Shown: in pieces, positions 28,788 through 36,578 of the stretch
How positions within the stretch are numbered: position 1 is the stretch's first letter
Layout: every line of letters begins with the position of its first letter
From: an uncultured Rhodospirillales bacterium
GTDB lineage: Bacteria; Pseudomonadota; Alphaproteobacteria; Azospirillales; Azospirillaceae
NCBI GenBank assembly: GCA_903856295.1
Contig: CAIOBP010000155.1
Coordinates: 1-47,671 of the forward strand
Direction of reading: 5' to 3'
Length of the DNA stretch: 47,671 nucleotides
Program-made: the position numbers and the translations under genes
Notes under the pieces: model-generated
Database searches by the model: none
Told to the model about the DNA's origin: nothing
Seen by the model: only the letters and a program-made list of their open reading frames with translations

Positions 28788-31016
28788 ATGCCCATGACCA
28801 CCGCCGAGACTCTCGAAACCGGGCTCCGTCATCACGAGGCCGGGCGGCTGGCCGACGCGGCGGCGGTCTACCAGCGGATTCTGACCACCGAGCCCGACCA
28901 CGCCGACAGCCTGCATCTGCTGGGGGTGGTCCATTTCCAGACCGGGCGCGCCGAGCTTGCGATTTCACATATCGCCCGCGCCATCGAGATCAACCCCGGA
29001 GTCGCGCCCTATCACAACAATCTGGCCAACGCCCTGTCGGCGCTCGGCCGCACCGCCGAGGCGATTCCGGCCTTTCAGGCGGCGCTGCACCTGCGCCCGT
29101 CCTCGGCGGAAATCCACTGCAACCTCGGCAACGCCCTCAAGGCCACCGGCCGGTTGGCCGAGGCGACCGATCATTACCGGCAGGCCTTGCGCCTCAAGCC
29201 CGATCTGCCCGAGGTCTGTTACAATCTGGCCAACGCCCGGCTCGAATCCGGCGACGGCCGCGAGGCGGAGCACTGGTATCGCGAGGCGCTGCGCCTGCGC
29301 CCGGCCTATCCCGAGGCGCTCTACAATCTGGGCAACGCCCTGGTCTCGCTGTGCCGGCTGAAGGAGGCCGAGGCCTGTTACCGCTCGGCCCTGGCCCTGG
29401 GTTCCGATCACGCGGAATGCCACAACAATCTCGGCACCGTGCTCCAGGAGTCGGGCCGGCTGAAGGATGCCGAGAGCTGTTACGCCAGCGCGCTGCGCCT
29501 CAAGCCCGACTATCCCGAGGCCCATTTCAATCTGGGCTGCGTCCACCAGACCCACAACCGGAACCAGGAGGCGATCGCCTGTTTTCGCCGTGCCCTGGCG
29601 CTTCAGCCCGATCATGGCGCCGCCCGCATCGCCCTCTGTATGGCCCAGTTGCCGATCCTCTATAGCGACGAAGCCGAAATCGCCCGCAGCCGGGCGGCCT
29701 ACGAGGCCGAGTTGCGGCGCCTCTGCCAGGAGGTCGAGCAGGGCCGGGGCGGCACCTCCCTCGCCGAAGCGGTCGGCACCAGCCAGCCCTTCTTTCTCGG
29801 CTACCAGGGCTTTTGCGACCGTGAGCTTCAAAGCCTCTATGGCACCATGGTCGCGCGCCTGCTGGCCGAGACCTGCCCGGTGGCCCAACCAAGGCCCCTG
29901 CCCCGCCCCGGCGAAAAAATCCGCCTCGGGCTGGTCAGCGGCTTTTTTCACGATCACACCATCTGGCGCCTGATGCTCTCGAGCTGGCTCAAGCAGATCG
30001 ACCGCAGCCGCTTCGAGCTGTTCTGCTATCACACCGGCCTCAAGCACGACGCCGATACCGACACCGCCGCCCGCCTCGCCGACCGTTTCGCCGAGGGCCG
30101 GCACAAGGGGGCGCGCTGGCGGGAGATCATCCTCGCCGACGCCCCCCACATCATCATCTATCCCGAAATCGGCATGGACGCGATGTCGGCCCATCTGGCC
30201 GCCCAGCGGCTGGCCGCCGTGCAATGCCTGTCCTGGGGCCATCCCGACACCACCGGCCTGCCGACCATCGATTACATGCTCAGCAGCGACCTGATGGAAC
30301 CCGAAAATGGCCAGGAGCATTACAGCGAAACCCTGGTCCGCCTGCCCAACCTGGGCACCTGTTACGAGCCCGGCCAGCACCGGCCGCTGGCTCTGGAGCG
30401 CGCCGAACTCGGCTTGCGCGCCTCGGCGACCGTCTATTGGTCGGGCCAGCCGCTCTATAAATATCATCCCCGGGACGACCGGGTCTTTCCGCGCATCGCC
30501 CGCGCGGCCGGGGATTGCCAGTTCGTGTTCATCGAGTTCGCCAAAAGCCGGCGGGTCACCGATCAATTCCGCCAGCGGCTGATCCGCGCCTTCGAGGCCG
30601 AGGGGCTGAGCTTCGAGGAGCACTGCGTCATCCTCCAACCCATGGCGCAAGACATGTTCATCGCCGCCGTCGGGCTGGCCGATGTGATTCTCGACACCAT
30701 CGGCTGGTCGGGGGGGCGCTCGACCCTGGATTGCCTGAGCCACGACCGGCCGTTCGTCACCCTGGCCGGGCCGCTGATGCGCGCCCGCCACACCGCCGCC
30801 ATCCTGACCCGAATGGAGGTGCCGGAGACCATCGCGACCAGCCCCGAGGACTACATCGCCATCGCCGCCCGCCTCGCCCGCGAACCGGACTGGCGCGCCG
30901 CCCTCGGCGCCAGAGTCCGCCAGAACAAGCACCGGGCGTTCAACGACCGCGACACCATCCGCGCCCTGGAGGATTTCCTCGGCCGGTGCATGCGGGAGTA
31001 CGCGCCGCCCCCCTAA
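28788..31016 (+). CDS. TPR repeat protein with O-GlcNAc transferase (SPINDLY/OGT-like) catalytic domain
   Basis: 742 aa. Residues about 8-285 are roughly eight tetratricopeptide repeats with the N-rich signatures NLGNALKATGRLAEA and NLANARLESGDGREA. From about 375 the GT41-type catalytic domain follows: IRLGLVSGFFHDHTIWRL, LAAVQCLSWGHPDTTGLPTID, YMLSSDLMEP, and ADVILDTIGWSGGRSTLDCL at the nucleotide-sugar site. It is likely a protein glycosyltransferase (N-acetylglucosamine or fucose); targets such as flagellin or secreted proteins are inference. GAGGAT precedes the ATG; a second ATG follows two codons on. Confidence 0.93.
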   Translation: MPMTTAETLETGLRHHEAGRLADAAAVYQRILTTEPDHADSLHLLGVVHFQTGRAELAISHIARAIEINPGVAPYHNNLANALSALGRTAEAIPAFQAALHLRPSSAEIHCNLGNALKATGRLAEATDHYRQALRLKPDLPEVCYNLANARLESGDGREAEHWYREALRLRPAYPEALYNLGNALVSLCRLKEAEACYRSALALGSDHAECHNNLGTVLQESGRLKDAESCYASALRLKPDYPEAHFNLGCVHQTHNRNQEAIACFRRALALQPDHGAARIALCMAQLPILYSDEAEIARSRAAYEAELRRLCQEVEQGRGGTSLAEAVGTSQPFFLGYQGFCDRELQSLYGTMVARLLAETCPVAQPRPLPRPGEKIRLGLVSGFFHDHTIWRLMLSSWLKQIDRSRFELFCYHTGLKHDADTDTAARLADRFAEGRHKGARWREIILADAPHIIIYPEIGMDAMSAHLAAQRLAAVQCLSWGHPDTTGLPTIDYMLSSDLMEPENGQEHYSETLVRLPNLGTCYEPGQHRPLALERAELGLRASATVYWSGQPLYKYHPRDDRVFPRIARAAGDCQFVFIEFAKSRRVTDQFRQRLIRAFEAEGLSFEEHCVILQPMAQDMFIAAVGLADVILDTIGWSGGRSTLDCLSHDRPFVTLAGPLMRARHTAAILTRMEVPETIATSPEDYIAIAARLAREPDWRAALGARVRQNKHRAFNDRDTIRALEDFLGRCMREYAPPP

Positions 31017-31099
31017 GGCGCTACGCGCTCTCGTCCAGCTCTGAGGCGCTATGCGCCCTCGTCCAGCCCTAAGGCGCTATGCGCCCTCGTCCAGCTTGG
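31016..31099. repeat. 28-bp tandem repeat, three copies, at convergent gene ends
   Basis: Three consecutive 28-base units starting AGGCGCTATGCGCCCTCGTC run from the TAA of the TPR glycosyltransferase into the 3' end of the convergent coiled-coil gene. The third copy encodes that gene's last residues KLDEGA and stop on the minus strand. Copies 2 and 3 differ at four positions, copy 1 by a few more. The period is not divisible by three, so the copies do not extend the protein. Confidence 0.85.
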
Positions 31100-31607
31100 T
31101 GATTTTGTAGCCCTGGGAGTCGTGGTAGACCTTTTCCAGTTCCTCGCGCGCCTCGGCCAGATTTTTCGCCCAGACCAGCACTTCCTGGGGCGTCTCCCAG
31201 ACCTGATCGATCGCCGCGGCGGCGGCCCCGCCCTTGGCCACATACTTGTTGACCACCAGCGCGATGAACGCCCGCCGGCCCTTGACCTCCTGACCGATCA
31301 GCCGCAACACCCGGTCGGGCGACTCCTGCTTCGCGGCCACCACCCTTCTGAGATGGGCGCGCTTGGCCGCCAGTTCCCTGACCTTGCCCTCAAGGGCGCT
31401 CAAAACCTTGCGCCGTTCGTCGGCACGGGCGAAAAGATCGCGCTCGAAGGCGCTGCGGCGATTGATCAGCGCCTCCAACTCGTCGCTTCTGGAATCGCGC
31501 CGAACCATGCCGACCAGCACGCGGCCGATCAGCAAACCGGAGGCGAAGGCGAAGGCGGAAAAGGCTCCGGCCACCACGAGGCCTTCGATGAAACGTTCAG
31601 CTCCCAT
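31077..31607 (-). CDS. Membrane-anchored coiled-coil protein, unknown function
   Basis: 176 aa from the ATG giving MGAERFIEGL. One helix (about 5-30, GLVVAGAFSAFAFASGLLIG) is followed by a long charged helical stretch (about 35-95) of coiled-coil character, for example RRSAFERDLFARADERRK. No named domain is recognised. It is the last of four minus-strand genes that start with the pseudokinase; the gaps to its neighbours are 70-90 bases. Like the pseudokinase and its 184 aa partner it is membrane-bound, which supports a shared complex (inference). Confidence 0.7.
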   Translation of the reverse strand: MGAERFIEGLVVAGAFSAFAFASGLLIGRVLVGMVRRDSRSDELEALINRRSAFERDLFARADERRKVLSALEGKVRELAAKRAHLRRVVAAKQESPDRVLRLIGQEVKGRRAFIALVVNKYVAKGGAAAAAIDQVWETPQEVLVWAKNLAEAREELEKVYHDSQGYKITKLDEGA

Positions 31608-31693
31608 GCCCTGACGACACGCCCCCGACCTTCGGCGACCTGGGGCCCTTCCCCGGAACCCCACCGGAACCGACGGCCCGGACCCCGATACTA

Positions 31694-32206
31694 TCAGCCA
31701 TCGAACCGGAACAATACCTCCCGGTTGCCATAGCTGTTGCTGCGAACCACCGACCAGCGATGAAATCCGACCAGAGGACGACCGAGATCGGCCTGGGTTC
31801 CTCCGGCAAGTTCGAAAAGATCGCACTCGCAATCGTCGCGGTTGCGATTGCGGAAGGCTTTCAGATACAGCCGGCCATCGGAGCCGGCGCAGAGCACCGC
31901 CTTGACGAAGCTGGCATCCGAGTCCCAGGCGATGGTCTCGACACTGTGCTCGACCTCGATCAGATACTCCGCGAGCGCCACCACCAGACGGTCATCGGTC
32001 AGCATCGCCCCCAAGGCCGGCGTCTGCCCGCCCCGCCCAGCCACCGCCGGGTCGAAAATGCGCACGACATTGTGCCGGCCGTCGCTGTGGCGAACCTTGA
32101 GCAGGATGGCGGTGTTCCCGCTGCCATCCAGGGAGTGATCGAGAAACAGCGTCCCCGGCCGAACCTCGCCAAAGGGAACGAACGCTCCGAATCCACAGGC
32201 ATTCAT
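31694..32206 (-). CDS. Hypothetical protein, 170 aa, in pseudokinase operon
   Basis: No family recognised. The ATG (MNACGFGAFVPFGEV) has an excellent GGAGG seven bases upstream, which fixes the start. The sequence is soluble and beta-rich in appearance, with HSLDGSGNTAILLKVRH, DSDASFVKAVLCAGSDGRLY and a C-terminal WSVVRSNSYGNREVLFRFD, resembling a sandwich or barrel fold with no signal peptide. A DCECD motif could bind metal but is weak evidence. It lies 70 bases after the 184 aa membrane protein on the same strand. Confidence 0.75.
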   Translation of the reverse strand: MNACGFGAFVPFGEVRPGTLFLDHSLDGSGNTAILLKVRHSDGRHNVVRIFDPAVAGRGGQTPALGAMLTDDRLVVALAEYLIEVEHSVETIAWDSDASFVKAVLCAGSDGRLYLKAFRNRNRDDCECDLFELAGGTQADLGRPLVGFHRWSVVRSNSYGNREVLFRFDG

Positions 32207-32276
32207 GACGCAACCTCCAAGAAGAACCGGCAGCCCCCTAGATAAGTGGGGGCATCCGCGATTTGTCCAAGAGAAT

Positions 32277-32831
32277 TCAGGCCTTGGCCTGCCCCGATGG
32301 CGCCCCCAGCGACTGCGCCTGCGCCGAGGCCTTGTTCTTCTCCAGCAACGCCTCGTCGCTGATCGCGACATCCGGCCCCCACTCCTCGGTCAGCTCCGCC
32401 TTTTTGGCGGTCAGAACCTCGATGCGGGACTCTGCGCGCATCACCTCGAAGTTGGTCACGATCGGCGGAATCAAGAAGTAGAGCGCCCACCCCACCGCCG
32501 CCGCGCCGTACATCACCAACCAGGTCAACGGATCGCCCAGCAGGTGCATTGCCGCCTGCATGGTGTGCTGGTGTTTCCACATGTCCATGGCGAAGGGCAG
32601 GATGCCGCAAACATTGATCGGCGCCACGGTCATCGACGCGCTTTTCGCCGGATCGCGGTCGGCGACGTAGGCGACCAGCGAGGGAATCATGCCGACGGCG
32701 GCCAGCACCGTCGTCGGCATCGCGAACAGCACCGCCGGGGTCACCACCAGCAGAAAGGTGACGAACGCACCGCCACCACCGCCACTGGCCTTGTGCGGCT
32801 TCTTCTTGCCGTGGGACTTGCCATCCGTCAT
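32277..32831 (-). CDS. Two-helix membrane protein with C-terminal coiled coil, coupled to pseudokinase
   Basis: 184 aa. A basic His/Lys/Gly-rich N-terminus (MTDGKSHGKKKPHK) precedes a long hydrophobic region at about 22-56 and a second at about 102-126; the remainder (130-184) is a charged helix, VMRAESRIEVLTAKKAELTE, likely coiled-coil and cytoplasmic. No database family is recognised. Its ATG overlaps the pseudokinase stop (ATGA), so the two are made together, probably in fixed ratio. Confidence 0.8.
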   Translation of the reverse strand: MTDGKSHGKKKPHKASGGGGGAFVTFLLVVTPAVLFAMPTTVLAAVGMIPSLVAYVADRDPAKSASMTVAPINVCGILPFAMDMWKHQHTMQAAMHLLGDPLTWLVMYGAAAVGWALYFLIPPIVTNFEVMRAESRIEVLTAKKAELTEEWGPDVAISDEALLEKNKASAQAQSLGAPSGQAKA

Positions 32832-34888
32832 CGCGAACCACCGAACATGATCATCATTCCCAGCAGCGCGCTGACGGCGATGCCCAGCAGCCACGCGATC
32901 ACGCTGGCCACCTGACGGCCGACGGTCTCGGTGATCGAAACGGTGTCGGCGATCTTTTCCCGAAGACGCTCGCCCTCCGCGACCGCCCGCTTGTAATCGC
33001 GCCGGGCGCCGGCGAATCCCATGGCGTCCTTGCGGATGGCCTCCGGATCGTCGACGGCGCGCAGCAACTCGGGCAATTTGCCTTCGGACGCCACCTTTTC
33101 GACCTGCTTGCGCACGACCTCCCGATTCTTCCGGTTGTGGAAGCGGGCGAAGGTCGGGTCCATCACCGAGGCCAGCCACCGGCACAGGCCGGGCAGCGGA
33201 TCAATCGAAAAGCGCACCTGAATGTCGCCGAAAATGCTGATCAGGGCGGTGATCCGGCGCACCGGATCGACACCGGGCATGAACTGGAGAAACAGCGCGT
33301 CCTCCAGGCGGCGGTGACGGGCGGCGAGGAACGCGGCGATATGACGGTCGAGCGGTTCGCGCGCCCGGTCCGACTGGGCCGAGGCCAGTTCCAGCGCCGT
33401 CAGCAGATCGGGCGGAGTCGCGGCGTGAAAGTCCGAGACCACCGGACTGAGACACTGAAGATGCGGATTGGTCTCATACAGCACCCGCTCGATGCCGAAT
33501 CCGGGGCCGGCGCGCTCAAGCAGCGGATGCACACTCTCGAGGGCCTGAACCAGCGGCGCCACCTCGACCTTGCCCTCGGGCTGAACATTGAGCCAGTAGG
33601 CCGGCAATTGCCAGGCGATGATCTCGGCCACCGGCTGGGTGGCCTCGCGCCGCACGAAGGAGTCGGCGAGGGCCAAGCCGATGCTGTCGGGCAGCACCGC
33701 CTTGCCGCGATAGCGAATCGGCGCGTGGGGGTCGAGGGCCATGGCCACCCGCGCCACCATCCGGTCGACGACGCTGGAGGAGCGGGAGGTCGCCGCCGCC
33801 GCCGGTTCGGCCGCCGAGGCCACGGTTTCGGCGAGGAGTTCGTCGGACAGGCCGCGCCGCAACCAGCGGTCGACATCGCCGCCCTCGATCAATGTCGCGG
33901 CGGCGGGCACGTTGGCCGCCATCAGCCGCGCCAGCCCCCGGCAATGCCAGACCTCGCGCCCCGCCAGTTCCAGCGGCCGGACGGCGCGCTTGGGCAACTG
34001 GCTCTGCTTGGGACTGAGGCGCCGGCCGGACAGCCAGAGATCGAACTGGTTGACGCCCCAGCGCTGCTTGGAATCATCGAGCAGCATGCCGCGCACCGGT
34101 TCCACCAGATCCTGAGGCAGGCGGGCATTGCCGACGATGGTGGCGAAACTGCCTTTGTCGATCTTGGCGTCGATCAGCGCCTCGTCGCTCATGTCGTGCA
34201 CCGGGTTGCGGCCCAGCGCCAGCACCACCAGCGTCACGCCGAACGCGTACATGTCGTCGAGAATCGAGCCGCGGCCGCGGCCGCCCGGGGTGGCCATCGC
34301 CCGCTCGACCGGTTCGAACAGCGCCGGCTGACCATAGCCCGGCGGCGCCGAGGCGCACTCGCCCAGCAGCACCCCGGCGTTGCTTTCCCGCAAGAACATG
34401 TTGGTGGGACGAATGCCGCCATGGGTGATGCCCCGCCCCGCCAAGTCCCGCAGCACGGCGGCCATCGAGGGAATCACCACGCGCATGATCTGGTCGTCGG
34501 GGACCGAGTCCGCCCCTCCGGTCAGGCTGGCCATCAGCCGCCGCCCCATCGGCCGCTCGAAGAACAGGGCCTGACGGCGCCCCGCGCCCTGATTCCACTC
34601 GACATGGCCGAAATCGAGCAGCTTCATGATGCCGGGATTGTCGATGGACATCAGAGTCGACAAGGCGTCGCCGCGCGGCGGCACGCCCCCGGACAGAATC
34701 AGGGCGAAGCACTCGCTCCGGCGCCCGCGCAGCATCCGCGCGGCGAAGGCGGGGCCGGCGATGCCGTCGAAGGCGGTCAGAGGCTGGCCGGGCAAAACCT
34801 CGTACCGGTCACCGAGTCTGACCGGTTCGGAGCCGCCATCCTTCCTGGCATCGGCCCTGGTATCGGCGAATTGTGGATCGCTCGGCAT
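32828..34888 (-). CDS. Protein-kinase-fold protein, predicted pseudokinase, C-terminal membrane anchor
   Basis: 686 aa from the ATG giving MPSDPQFADT. Residues about 20-290 follow the Ser/Thr kinase plan: SIDNPGIMKLLDFGHVE (subdomain IV), THGGIRPTNMFL at 155-166 where HRDxKPxN should be, GEC at 176-178 where DFG should be, PALFEPVERA near the APE position, DDMYAFGVTLVVLALG (subdomain IX) and DDSKQRWGVNQF (subdomain XI). The catalytic Asp is Gly, the DFG Asp is lost, and no glycine loop or VAIK Lys is visible, so phosphotransfer is unlikely; the Asn of the loop and the helical core remain. The middle (300-640) is unrecognised. A single helix at about 660-682 anchors it. Confidence 0.85.
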   Translation of the reverse strand: MPSDPQFADTRADARKDGGSEPVRLGDRYEVLPGQPLTAFDGIAGPAFAARMLRGRRSECFALILSGGVPPRGDALSTLMSIDNPGIMKLLDFGHVEWNQGAGRRQALFFERPMGRRLMASLTGGADSVPDDQIMRVVIPSMAAVLRDLAGRGITHGGIRPTNMFLRESNAGVLLGECASAPPGYGQPALFEPVERAMATPGGRGRGSILDDMYAFGVTLVVLALGRNPVHDMSDEALIDAKIDKGSFATIVGNARLPQDLVEPVRGMLLDDSKQRWGVNQFDLWLSGRRLSPKQSQLPKRAVRPLELAGREVWHCRGLARLMAANVPAAATLIEGGDVDRWLRRGLSDELLAETVASAAEPAAAATSRSSSVVDRMVARVAMALDPHAPIRYRGKAVLPDSIGLALADSFVRREATQPVAEIIAWQLPAYWLNVQPEGKVEVAPLVQALESVHPLLERAGPGFGIERVLYETNPHLQCLSPVVSDFHAATPPDLLTALELASAQSDRAREPLDRHIAAFLAARHRRLEDALFLQFMPGVDPVRRITALISIFGDIQVRFSIDPLPGLCRWLASVMDPTFARFHNRKNREVVRKQVEKVASEGKLPELLRAVDDPEAIRKDAMGFAGARRDYKRAVAEGERLREKIADTVSITETVGRQVASVIAWLLGIAVSALLGMMIMFGGSR

Positions 34889-35319
34889 GGCGGTCCGGAA
34901 CTTTCTGCGATCGGTTGCCGCGCCGGCGGAAGTTTCCCTCCCCCTGCGGTCGCAGGCACCATACCCCAGGAATGCCGCGAGAAAAAACGGCAATCGCGCC
35001 GGGAGACCGGCTTTGCCGCCGACTCGCCCACGGAGTCTGCCGATTTTTTGACCGTTTCGAACAGCACCGCCCGGAGCTTTCCGAGAAACCGCGCCGCCGG
35101 CCCCGCGATTTTTTCACGGGCGCCCTGGCACGGACCACTGACGAACCACTTATTGATATCGCAATGATAATTCCCGCTTGGCAGCTTGCCTCAAGCTCCG
35201 TATGGTGCGTGCAACCTGATTTTTTCGGTTATTTCAACCGGTGACACTCGCTCTCCCCTCACCATCCGAGGGTCCCCGCCGACTGGCTCGTCCCAGTCAT
35301 ATCCACGACGGAGAAGCCT
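34889..35319. promoter_or_regulatory. Divergent intergenic region between pseudokinase operon and triplicated small genes
   Basis: 431 bp without a convincing gene. It must carry promoters for both directions. The near-palindrome CCTGCGGTCGCAGG lies in the pseudokinase leader at about 34952-34965. Near 35146-35182 the sequence becomes AT-rich (CTTATTGATATCGCAATGAT), the most promoter-like part. A small hairpin CGGTT/AACCG (35226-35240) follows a T-run about 80 bases before the first small gene. Individual promoter boxes cannot be fixed. Confidence 0.4.
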
Positions 35320-35643
35320 ATGCGCAGACTGTTGATCGTCGCTATCGTCGCCTTAATCGGCGCCCTGCCCGTGACCGGCCACGCCCAGACCAAGGGGCAA
35401 GCCCCGACCGCCGCCAAGCCGCCCTCGGAAACCCCATATCCTTATGTTGTCGGCCTCGGCGCGATCGCCGGCATCGTCGGCGCCCAGTACGTCCTCTTCG
35501 GCCCGGCGGGCTTTCCCTTCTGGGAGTCCACCGTGTCCGGACAGCAGATTCCGGCGGTCATCTCGGTCGGCGTGAGCCGCATGTTCGCCATCACCAGCTC
35601 GGTGACCGGCGGCCTGATCGCCAACTGGATGTACGACCACTAG
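35320..35643 (+). CDS. Small exported membrane protein, paralogue 1 of 3
   Basis: 107 aa. A signal peptide MRRLLIVAIVALIGALPVTGHAQT (about 24 residues, cleavage likely after HA) is followed by a Pro/Ala/Lys-rich linker, a glycine-zipper-like helix GLGAIAGIVGA, an aromatic segment FPFWES and a C-terminal TSSVTGGLIANWMYDH. A GGAG precedes the ATG. It shares the signal peptide, the A-G-I/V-V helix and the TGxLIANW ending with the two genes that follow. No named family is recognised; an inner-membrane or periplasmic oligomer is plausible. Confidence 0.8.
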   Translation: MRRLLIVAIVALIGALPVTGHAQTKGQAPTAAKPPSETPYPYVVGLGAIAGIVGAQYVLFGPAGFPFWESTVSGQQIPAVISVGVSRMFAITSSVTGGLIANWMYDH

Positions 35644-35726
35644 GCCGTGATCCGGTGAACCTTGCCGCGGGCGACCTCGTGCCGCCGCAGCCCCATTGCC
35701 CCGATCAAGACCTCCGAGGAGGAACC

Positions 35727-36056
35727 ATGCGCAGACTGATCATCGTTGCCCTGATCGCCCTGATCGGCTTGATGCCGCTCACGTTTTCGGCCAACGCCTA
35801 CGCCCAGACCCAGCCCCAGGGCCAGACCGTCGCCAAGACCGACCATCGCCTCATGGCGGTCGGTGCCGGCGCCATTGTCGGCATCGTGCTGTTCAACATG
35901 CTGACCTATCCCTACGGCTCGGTGCCGTTCGTCGCGGCTCCGCTCGCGCCGACTCCGACCAACATCGCCCTCGGCAGCCGCGTGCTCGCGACTCTCACCG
36001 GTGGCGCCGGCGGTCTGGCCGCGCACTATCTCTACAACGCGTCCTCGAACAACTGA
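35727..36056 (+). CDS. Small exported membrane protein, paralogue 2 of 3
   Basis: 109 aa, second of the triplet, 83 bases after the first. The ATG follows GAGGAGG by a few bases. Signal peptide MRRLIIVALIALIGLMPLTF, cleavage around NAYAQT, then a Gln/Lys linker, hydrophobic helix MAVGAGAIVGIVLFNMLTY, a Pro-rich middle and a C-terminal LTGGAGGLAAHYLYN. Its 5' coding DNA is nearly identical to that of the third copy, pointing to recent local duplication. The ending has lost the IANW of the other two. Confidence 0.8.
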   Translation: MRRLIIVALIALIGLMPLTFSANAYAQTQPQGQTVAKTDHRLMAVGAGAIVGIVLFNMLTYPYGSVPFVAAPLAPTPTNIALGSRVLATLTGGAGGLAAHYLYNASSNN

Positions 36057-36177
36057 TTCCGGCGCTAAGGCCCCCGGCCCGCCCCTTCCGCCCAGGCTCG
36101 ACCGCACCGCCGATCCCGAGCCGGCATGAGGACGCGACCGGTATCCCACCGCCGAATTCCGCTCCAAGGAGACCATA

Positions 36178-36495
36178 ATGCGCAGACTGGTCATCGTTGC
36201 CCTGATCGCCTTGATCGGCCTTGTGCCGTTCACCGCTTCGGCCCAGACCCACACCACCGCCCAGACCGCGGCCAAGACCGATTACGTCTATCCGCTGGTG
36301 CTGGCGACCGGTGCCCTGGCCGGCGTCGTCGCCATCAACCTCTACTCGTTCTCCTACTTCACCCTGCCGCTGGCGCTCGACACCGCCGCCGGTCCTGCGA
36401 TTTCCTCGCCGGCCGCCGCCGCCGCCAGCCGCATCTATGTGATCACCTCGGGCGTCACCGGCGCCCTGATCGCGAACTGGCTCTACGGCAAGTAA
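36178..36495 (+). CDS. Small exported membrane protein, paralogue 3 of 3
   Basis: 105 aa, last of the triplet. AAGGAGA lies seven bases before the ATG. Signal peptide MRRLVIVALIALIGLVPFTA with cleavage at ASAQT, a linker with repeated Gln-Thr, helix LVLATGALAGVVAINLY, an Ala-rich middle and the ending TSGVTGALIANWLYGK. It ends 46 bases before a strong intrinsic terminator, so the three genes probably form one transcript. Confidence 0.8.
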   Translation: MRRLVIVALIALIGLVPFTASAQTHTTAQTAAKTDYVYPLVLATGALAGVVAINLYSFSYFTLPLALDTAAGPAISSPAAAAASRIYVITSGVTGALIANWLYGK

Positions 36496-36541
36496 GCGGC
36501 CCGGACGGGCCCCGCCCGTCTTGGTGACTCCCTTCAAGCAG

Positions 36542-36578
36542 CCGCCGCTGGCGATCCGGCCAGCGGCGGTTTCTTTTT
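36542..36578 (+). terminator. Rho-independent terminator after the small-protein triplet
   Basis: A perfect 10-bp stem CCGCCGCTGG/CCAGCGGCGG (36542-36551, 36560-36569) with an eight-base loop is followed by TTTCTTTTT. Confidence 0.9.

Follow-up and report, generated by a model that had tools for sequence, protein, structure and literature searches.

The window analysed here is the whole of contig CAIOBP010000155.1 (47,671 nucleotides; assembly GCA_903856295.1) from an uncultured Rhodospirillales bacterium, whose genome and genus are called below the source genome and the source genus. Its positions 31077 to 36495 hold two divergent groups of genes, and two of these genes, KIN and M, are the main subject of this report: KIN encodes a kinase-fold protein with a predicted C-terminal membrane anchor, and M a membrane protein that is its likely partner. 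Both are followed on the minus strand by P3 and P4, and three small tandem genes, T1 to T3 (the triplet), lead away from KIN on the plus strand. The features of the region are the following:

32828-34888, minus strand: KIN, predicted tail-anchored pseudokinase, core of the module; 686 amino acids, ATG at 34888
32277-32831, minus strand: M, membrane partner of KIN, core of the module; 184 amino acids
31694-32206, minus strand: P3, genus-level neighbour outside the conserved module; 170 amino acids
31077-31607, minus strand: P4, local copy of a family that is sited elsewhere in other genomes; 176 amino acids
35320-35643, plus strand: T1, exported-looking small protein of an independent tandem family; 107 amino acids
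35727-36056, plus strand: T2, exported-looking small protein, same family as T1; 109 amino acids
36178-36495, plus strand: T3, exported-looking small protein, same family as T1 and T2; 105 amino acids
36540-36571, plus strand: terminator-like hairpin 3' of the triplet; 13 pairs, then a T-rich tail
31623-31689, strand not assigned: dispersed-repeat copy that lies mostly between P3 and P4; listed 20 times in the source genome, itself included

The stop codon of KIN and the start codon of M share a 4-bp ATGA overlap, and a divergent gap of 431 bp (34889-35319) separates KIN from the triplet. All seven open reading frames (ORFs) were recovered with the positions, strands, overlap and gap given in a preliminary description of the locus. 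They are real genes because relatives exist in the order, for which we used a sample of 82 genomes that are all at least 90% complete and include the source genome (KIN and M, 82/82 each; P4 family, 79/82; triplet family, 11/82; P3, 4/82). None of the seven window proteins scored above a Pfam or NCBIfam cut-off. Hydrophobic segments, defined by a Kyte-Doolittle score of at least 1.6 in a window of 19 residues, were found at residues 658-685 of KIN, 17-57 of M and 6-35 of P4, and not in P3; T1, T2 and T3 have one each at the N-terminus and another near residues 35-62. Export, coiled coils and topology of these seven proteins are likewise predicted from the amino acid sequence.

KIN consists of a kinase fold (approximately residues 19-289), a helical C-terminal domain (approximately 298-655) and the terminal membrane segment, and its AlphaFold2 model has a mean predicted local distance difference test score (pLDDT) of 88.0. 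The protein belongs to the protein kinase fold superfamily: residues 19-289 superimpose on WNK3 with a VIA Z score of 20.7 (root mean square deviation 3.0, 255 residues aligned), the whole model matches kinases in Foldseek at E 1e-8, a profile of 23 homologues finds solved kinases in the PDB at E 7.6e-11, and all 23 aligned homologues match the Pfam family Pkinase with E values no higher than 0.5 (best 2e-10). The four best structural neighbours in VIA are all WNK kinases. Residue counts refer to the 85 unique sequences among 104 full-length KIN ORFs, many of the 85 from Azospirillaceae, with fragments left out; the alignment itself holds 23 chosen homologues, and KIN was also aligned to MK2 residue by residue. 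The beta3 lysine is found in none of the 85 (isoleucine 45, valine 30, alanine 5, leucine 5; the surroundings read FA[LIT][IVA] in the 23 aligned homologues), and the HRD aspartate is kept in a single sequence and absent from 84. Ordinary protein kinase activity is therefore not expected of KIN. For the most part it reads FAL[IV] at beta3 and H[GR][ASG]IRPTN in the HRD region, where the histidine position is occupied by His (78), Cys (5), Ser (1) or Ala (1) and never by Gly. These two losses also led us to reject an active serine/threonine protein kinase, and they suggest that the label serine/threonine protein kinase, under which KIN appears in public Azospirillum annotation, is misleading; M is annotated as hypothetical in Azospirillum thermophilum.

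Other kinase positions are retained. The metal-binding asparagine of HRDxxxxN is present in 84 of the 85 homologues, the position of the DFG aspartate is acidic in 81 (Glu 55, Asp 26, Gln 3, Pro 1; GEC or GDC in most of the 23 aligned homologues), and the alphaF aspartate and the subdomain XI arginine (Arg 276) are invariant in all 85. The position of the alphaC glutamate is variable (Asp 52, Glu 14, others 19), and Arg 72 is 98% conserved. KIN can thus be described, as far as its residues tell, as a putative tail-anchored pseudokinase that retains metal-binding positions. The preliminary description had already taken it for a kinase-fold pseudokinase with a C-terminal membrane helix, and the fold, the two losses and a C-terminus that is hydrophobic at or above the cut-off in 83/85 homologues (lowest value 1.58) bear this out. 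The same residues could, however, belong to a working enzyme of a non-canonical kind, in which the asparagine and the Glu or Asp at the DFG position would bind Mg-nucleotide, a basic residue such as Arg 72 would replace the beta3 lysine, and phosphate, AMP or another group would be transferred to a partner, perhaps M. Retention of the asparagine and of the acidic position despite deep divergence argues for such an enzyme, as do the conservation of Arg 72 and the structural neighbourhood of the WNKs, which according to a review on bacterial pseudokinases (PMC12599244) are active kinases with the lysine moved to beta2; the review also lists SelO and SidJ as pseudokinases with new activities. Yet the beta3 lysine, which KIN is without, is present in both SelO and SidJ (PMC12599244), and neither the missing HRD aspartate nor the varying alphaC position fits catalysis well. 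We consider an active enzyme unlikely, if worth keeping in view.

The C-terminal domain of KIN, approximately 360 residues long, folds with confidence on its own (pLDDT 90.6), and it was searched separately because the kinase domain filled the match list of the whole model. Foldseek found nothing in the PDB at E 0.001 for this domain (best E 1.2), and the best VIA match covered 43 residues of a long helix with a Z score of 5.3, all others being at or below 4.7, an absence that does not prove a new fold. The profile search matched the domain to designed armadillo-repeat constructs (E as low as 2.4e-7), which we rejected as noise, no stretch passing alone; apart from these constructs nothing scored below 0.2. 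With a mean majority frequency of 0.552 over residues 298-600 the domain is about as conserved as the kinase domain (0.576), and G463, G465, E467, R468, Y471, C479, S481 and D514 are near-invariant. Its absence outside the Alphaproteobacteria is weakly tested: in a phylum sample of 378 genomes, the share of which outside the class is not stated, it was matched in 16, all Alphaproteobacteria, one of them (G628) weakly over 115 residues (E 6.2e-4).

M has a basic N-terminus, two hydrophobic stretches and a charged, probably helical tail at the C-terminus. The second stretch (residues 103-121) scores 1.59, marginally below the cut-off, and among the aligned homologues a hydrophobic window of at least 1.3 occurs before residue 60 in 23/23 and after it in 21/23 (in this alignment L010 was trimmed at its stop and L029 and L057 were left out). 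No credible Pfam match was obtained for the 23 homologues of M (best E 0.0052, in one member), the best hit among PDB sequences had an E value of 0.36, and PADLOC gave no match.

KIN and M occur together. Both are present in every genome of the order, which includes Azospirillum, and KIN is single-copy in most of them. In a class sample of 385 genomes across the Alphaproteobacteria (KIN at E 1e-10 or below, M at E 0.001 or below), KIN was found in 131 genomes, approximately one third and most near full length, and M in 133; 129 genomes have both (phi 0.965). In 122 genomes M lies directly downstream of KIN and on its strand, with 131 pairs and a median gap between matches of 55 bp. Two genomes seemed at first to hold KIN only (G253 and G412); in these a local profile search found M adjoining KIN at E 1.1e-17 and 6.1e-5, respectively. 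M is therefore present in every one of the 131 KIN genomes and adjacent to KIN in 124. In three further genomes (G251, G298, G382) the KIN contig has no neighbouring M and M lies elsewhere in the genome, both genes being kept, and in four (G112, G192, G231, G422) KIN and M are on separate contigs, KIN lying less than 140 bases from the contig end in G192 and G422. The pair is duplicated as a unit in G432, G355 and G213, and it stays together after relocation, beside purH in the source genus and in another context in Azospirillum ramasamyi. The membrane protein that the preliminary description had noted as coupled to KIN by the ATGA overlap is thus its evolutionary partner across the order and the class sample.

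Comparison of 36 distinct loci (L053, a repeat of L009 from G050, was counted once, and several contigs are short) showed hisZ-purA-KIN-M-rpoH as the commonest context, an order seen in Azospirillum thermophilum. purA lies upstream of KIN in 25 of the 36 loci (with the two centres less than 3 kb apart; L015 is too short for purA to be seen), and rpoH in the downstream flank in 16, on the opposite strand and converging. Such recurrent neighbours would be expected if KIN and M were a membrane regulator of one of them, for example of purA in purine supply or of rpoH, which encodes the heat-shock sigma factor. We find this very unlikely: the pair is kept away from both genes in the source genus, in A. 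ramasamyi and at loci L061 and L107, rpoH has the convergent orientation, and core genes often retain neighbours without a functional link. In the source genus KIN and M lie beside purH and a heparinase-like gene; as these two are conserved in the same genus block, synteny there is general. The lasting link across loci is that of KIN with M. The contig of locus L015, which also carries the pair, bears the label Candidatus Marinimicrobia and is possibly mis-binned; an rluD-like gene follows M there, as it does in Rhodospirillales.

Taken together, KIN and M probably constitute an inner-membrane pseudokinase scaffold or nucleotide-sensing complex that is old in the Alphaproteobacteria and to which P3, P4 and the triplet do not belong. 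KIN would be tail-anchored in the inner membrane, with its kinase and helical C-terminal domains facing the cytoplasm, and its long juxtamembrane helix and last helix would pack against M, the last helix within the membrane; the charged tail of M would also be cytoplasmic. The dead kinase domain might then serve as a platform that recruits cytoplasmic partners to M, perhaps gated by nucleotide or metal. What the analysis establishes is sequence, distribution, co-occurrence, adjacency, residue loss and predicted fold; the physical complex, its topology, ligand binding and any output we infer from the anatomy of the two proteins. A bolder reading, which we hold to be rather improbable, would see in KIN and M an undescribed two-protein membrane machine from early Alphaproteobacteria that performs or gates a non-canonical nucleotide-dependent reaction at the inner membrane, by means of a kinase-fold domain whose metal site has been rebuilt and a helical domain whose fold is new.

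Several observations weigh against the scaffold or sensing complex. Complex and function are proposals drawn from genes and predicted folds, and the retained asparagine and acidic DFG position leave room for unusual catalysis. Four genomes (G176, G215, G315, G396) have a KIN paralogue with no detected M downstream, and the same genomes hold another KIN with M. In G095 (C1) and G227 (C111, C137, C4, C86) there are four copies of M and one KIN each; M can therefore multiply without KIN, and in these genomes it may have a KIN-independent role or another partner. The class sample also includes four genomes with M only: G113 and G127, whose completeness is 84% and 75%, and G085 and G431, whose matches of 53 and 28 residues are probably spurious and are included in the count of 133. 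Finally, KIN homologues show weak matches at E up to 0.001 to the families LanL (23/23, best E 5.3e-14) and MAD6 (19/23, best E 1.1e-11). We read those to LanL as the shared kinase fold, and both assignments were rejected for KIN of the window, whose kinase segment scored 27.8 bits for the class IV lanthionine synthetase LanL, where the cut-off is 650, and which reached 16.2 bits against 460 for MAD6. Second KIN copies with no detected M downstream (L123, L124, L125, L127) show the same loss of beta3 lysine and HRD aspartate.

The remaining genes of the region are neighbours and not parts of the KIN-M unit. P3 occurs in 4/82 genomes of the order, all of them among the five genomes of the source genus, and adjoins M there. 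The P4 family is widespread in the order; the protein has one N-terminal hydrophobic segment and a charged tail, and the source genome has a paralogue with 45% identity at C1:7908-8423. Among the matches listed, P4 adjoins KIN in the source genome only, and in the genus's other four genomes, including the nearest one (G050), the listed relative is on another contig than KIN. At two of the four P4-family loci whose contexts were read, L058 (7772-8912) and L065 (5780-6992), neither of which holds KIN, the P4-family gene is followed by a gene of approximately 172 amino acids with a hydrophobic N-terminus that falls in a common cluster, an unnamed pair.

T1 to T3 share the N-terminus MRRL..IVA, and they are paralogues, as the preliminary description had stated (46% and 45% identity of two of them to the third). 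T1 was considered as DUF3309 and rejected (20.1 bits, below the cut-off of 22.3). The triplet family was detected in 11/82 genomes of the order at E 0.001 and lies beside KIN only in the source genus, where this holds for 5/5 genomes; each of the five has an extra set of three besides the one beside KIN. In the six other carriers the family is on a different contig from KIN, with three to four clustered genes in five genomes and one match only in G081, the sixth; in 71/82 genomes KIN and M are present and the triplet has no match at this threshold. Sets of three to four close copies, each copy combining a signal-like N-terminus with a hydrophobic segment rich in glycine, are found in 10 of the 11 carriers; examples lie at 35320-36495 of the window and at L097 6540-7822, L098 537-1794 and L100 5215-7174. 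Seven other sets, one of them from the source genome, showed few recurrent neighbours when read, and those of Azospirillum G024 and G018 share one ORF cluster. Between positions 31000 and 36700 we found five terminator-like sites (mean 3.6 in shuffles), among which the hairpin at 36540-36571 has the longest stem, and two promoter-like sites (against 0.8); both numbers are little above chance. The position of the hairpin suggests that the triplet is a transcription unit of its own.

It had been proposed that all seven genes form a single envelope system, in which the pseudokinase has the exported proteins as its partners or outputs. In favour of this, the triplet is divergent to KIN in all five genomes of the genus and P3 follows M in four of them. 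However, the same synteny takes in purH and the heparinase-like gene, a second triplet set is present in every genome of the genus, and the triplet has promoter- and terminator-like sites of its own, though little above chance. The triplet has no match in 71 genomes that have KIN and M and lies on another contig in six, an independent occurrence that the preliminary description had itself named as evidence against one system. The comparison of co-occurrence that it had called for thus retained KIN and M, which are kept together, and separated from them P3, P4 and the triplet, whose presence beside the pair varies. The seven genes as a general system are refuted by this distribution, and we regard any version of the proposal as highly improbable. 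A characterised secretion or polysaccharide system, the other finding that the preliminary description would have counted against itself, is indicated by none of the Pfam, NCBIfam or PADLOC matches.

The gap between P3 and P4 contains an element of approximately 65 bp (31623-31689) that was listed at 20 places in the source genome including itself, the other 19 copies having 74-85% identity. Three copies lie within six bases of a contig start, and the element may be a dispersed repeat that breaks assembly; a 16-base piece of it recurs with two mismatches at positions 5-20 of the window. Folding of the stretch 31608-31696 is not unusually stable (z -1.09), and Rfam gave no match at gathering scores between 31000 and 36700.

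The conservation of KIN, in all genomes of the order and 131 of the 385 of the class sample, points to a basic membrane function. KIN is tied to one partner gene and carries a confidently predicted domain for which no PDB match was seen, and the unit has only two genes and is therefore directly testable by deletion and pull-down.

Among solved structures the closest folds to KIN are those of the WNK kinases, which, like KIN, have no lysine in beta3. WNKs keep the HRD aspartate, which is absent from 84/85 KIN homologues. Matches of KIN in the PADLOC library were to PD-T4-6 (E 2.3e-5, covering part of the kinase segment, in a library without a cut-off) and mad6 (E 0.0007); as all such matches are confined to the kinase segments of KIN and M has none, we rejected a defence system. 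Bacterial pseudokinases are largely unexplored by experiment, according to the review cited above (PMC12599244), and of the families described there GLW is nearest by habit, as it is found in Proteobacteria and has a C-terminal membrane segment like KIN. In GLW proteins, however, GLW replaces HRD and a poly-leucine motif ends in Leu or Trp at the beta3 lysine, whereas KIN never has Gly at the HRD histidine position and mostly has isoleucine or valine at beta3. Membership was rejected with both defining motifs absent, the hydrophobic C-terminal segment being the shared feature. DLHK, which in the same descriptions keeps the HRD aspartate and has no membrane segment, and DYD, an actinobacterial and firmicute family with a beta3 arginine and a DYD motif, were rejected as well: KIN has the aspartate in 1/85 and a hydrophobic C-terminus in 83/85, and none of the 85 has arginine at beta3. 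KIN is set apart from these three by their descriptions in PMC12599244; no paper on the KIN-M pair was listed in our literature searches, and a family name for KIN may already exist.

Membrane pseudokinases that act as scaffolds are a known kind, exemplified in the review (PMC12599244) by EssB/YukC of type VIIb secretion and by MviN. EssB/YukC resembles KIN in being membrane-bound and in having a cytoplasmic kinase domain that is degraded, and it recruits and scaffolds other proteins (PMC12599244). KIN differs in its large extra helical domain and its C-terminal anchor, and it is found in Alphaproteobacteria, whereas EssB is described there from Firmicutes; no type VII secretion gene was recognised at three KIN loci (one scanned with Pfam, two with deposited annotation). 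MviN of Mycobacterium tuberculosis, which with FhaA is treated in the same source (ActPs3, PMC12599244), likewise has a membrane-linked pseudokinase domain that acts by recruitment. It is a transmembrane peptidoglycan-synthesis protein with the pseudokinase as one domain, and by this account it is without the asparagine and the DFG residues; KIN has no peptidoglycan-synthesis domain by Pfam and keeps both positions.

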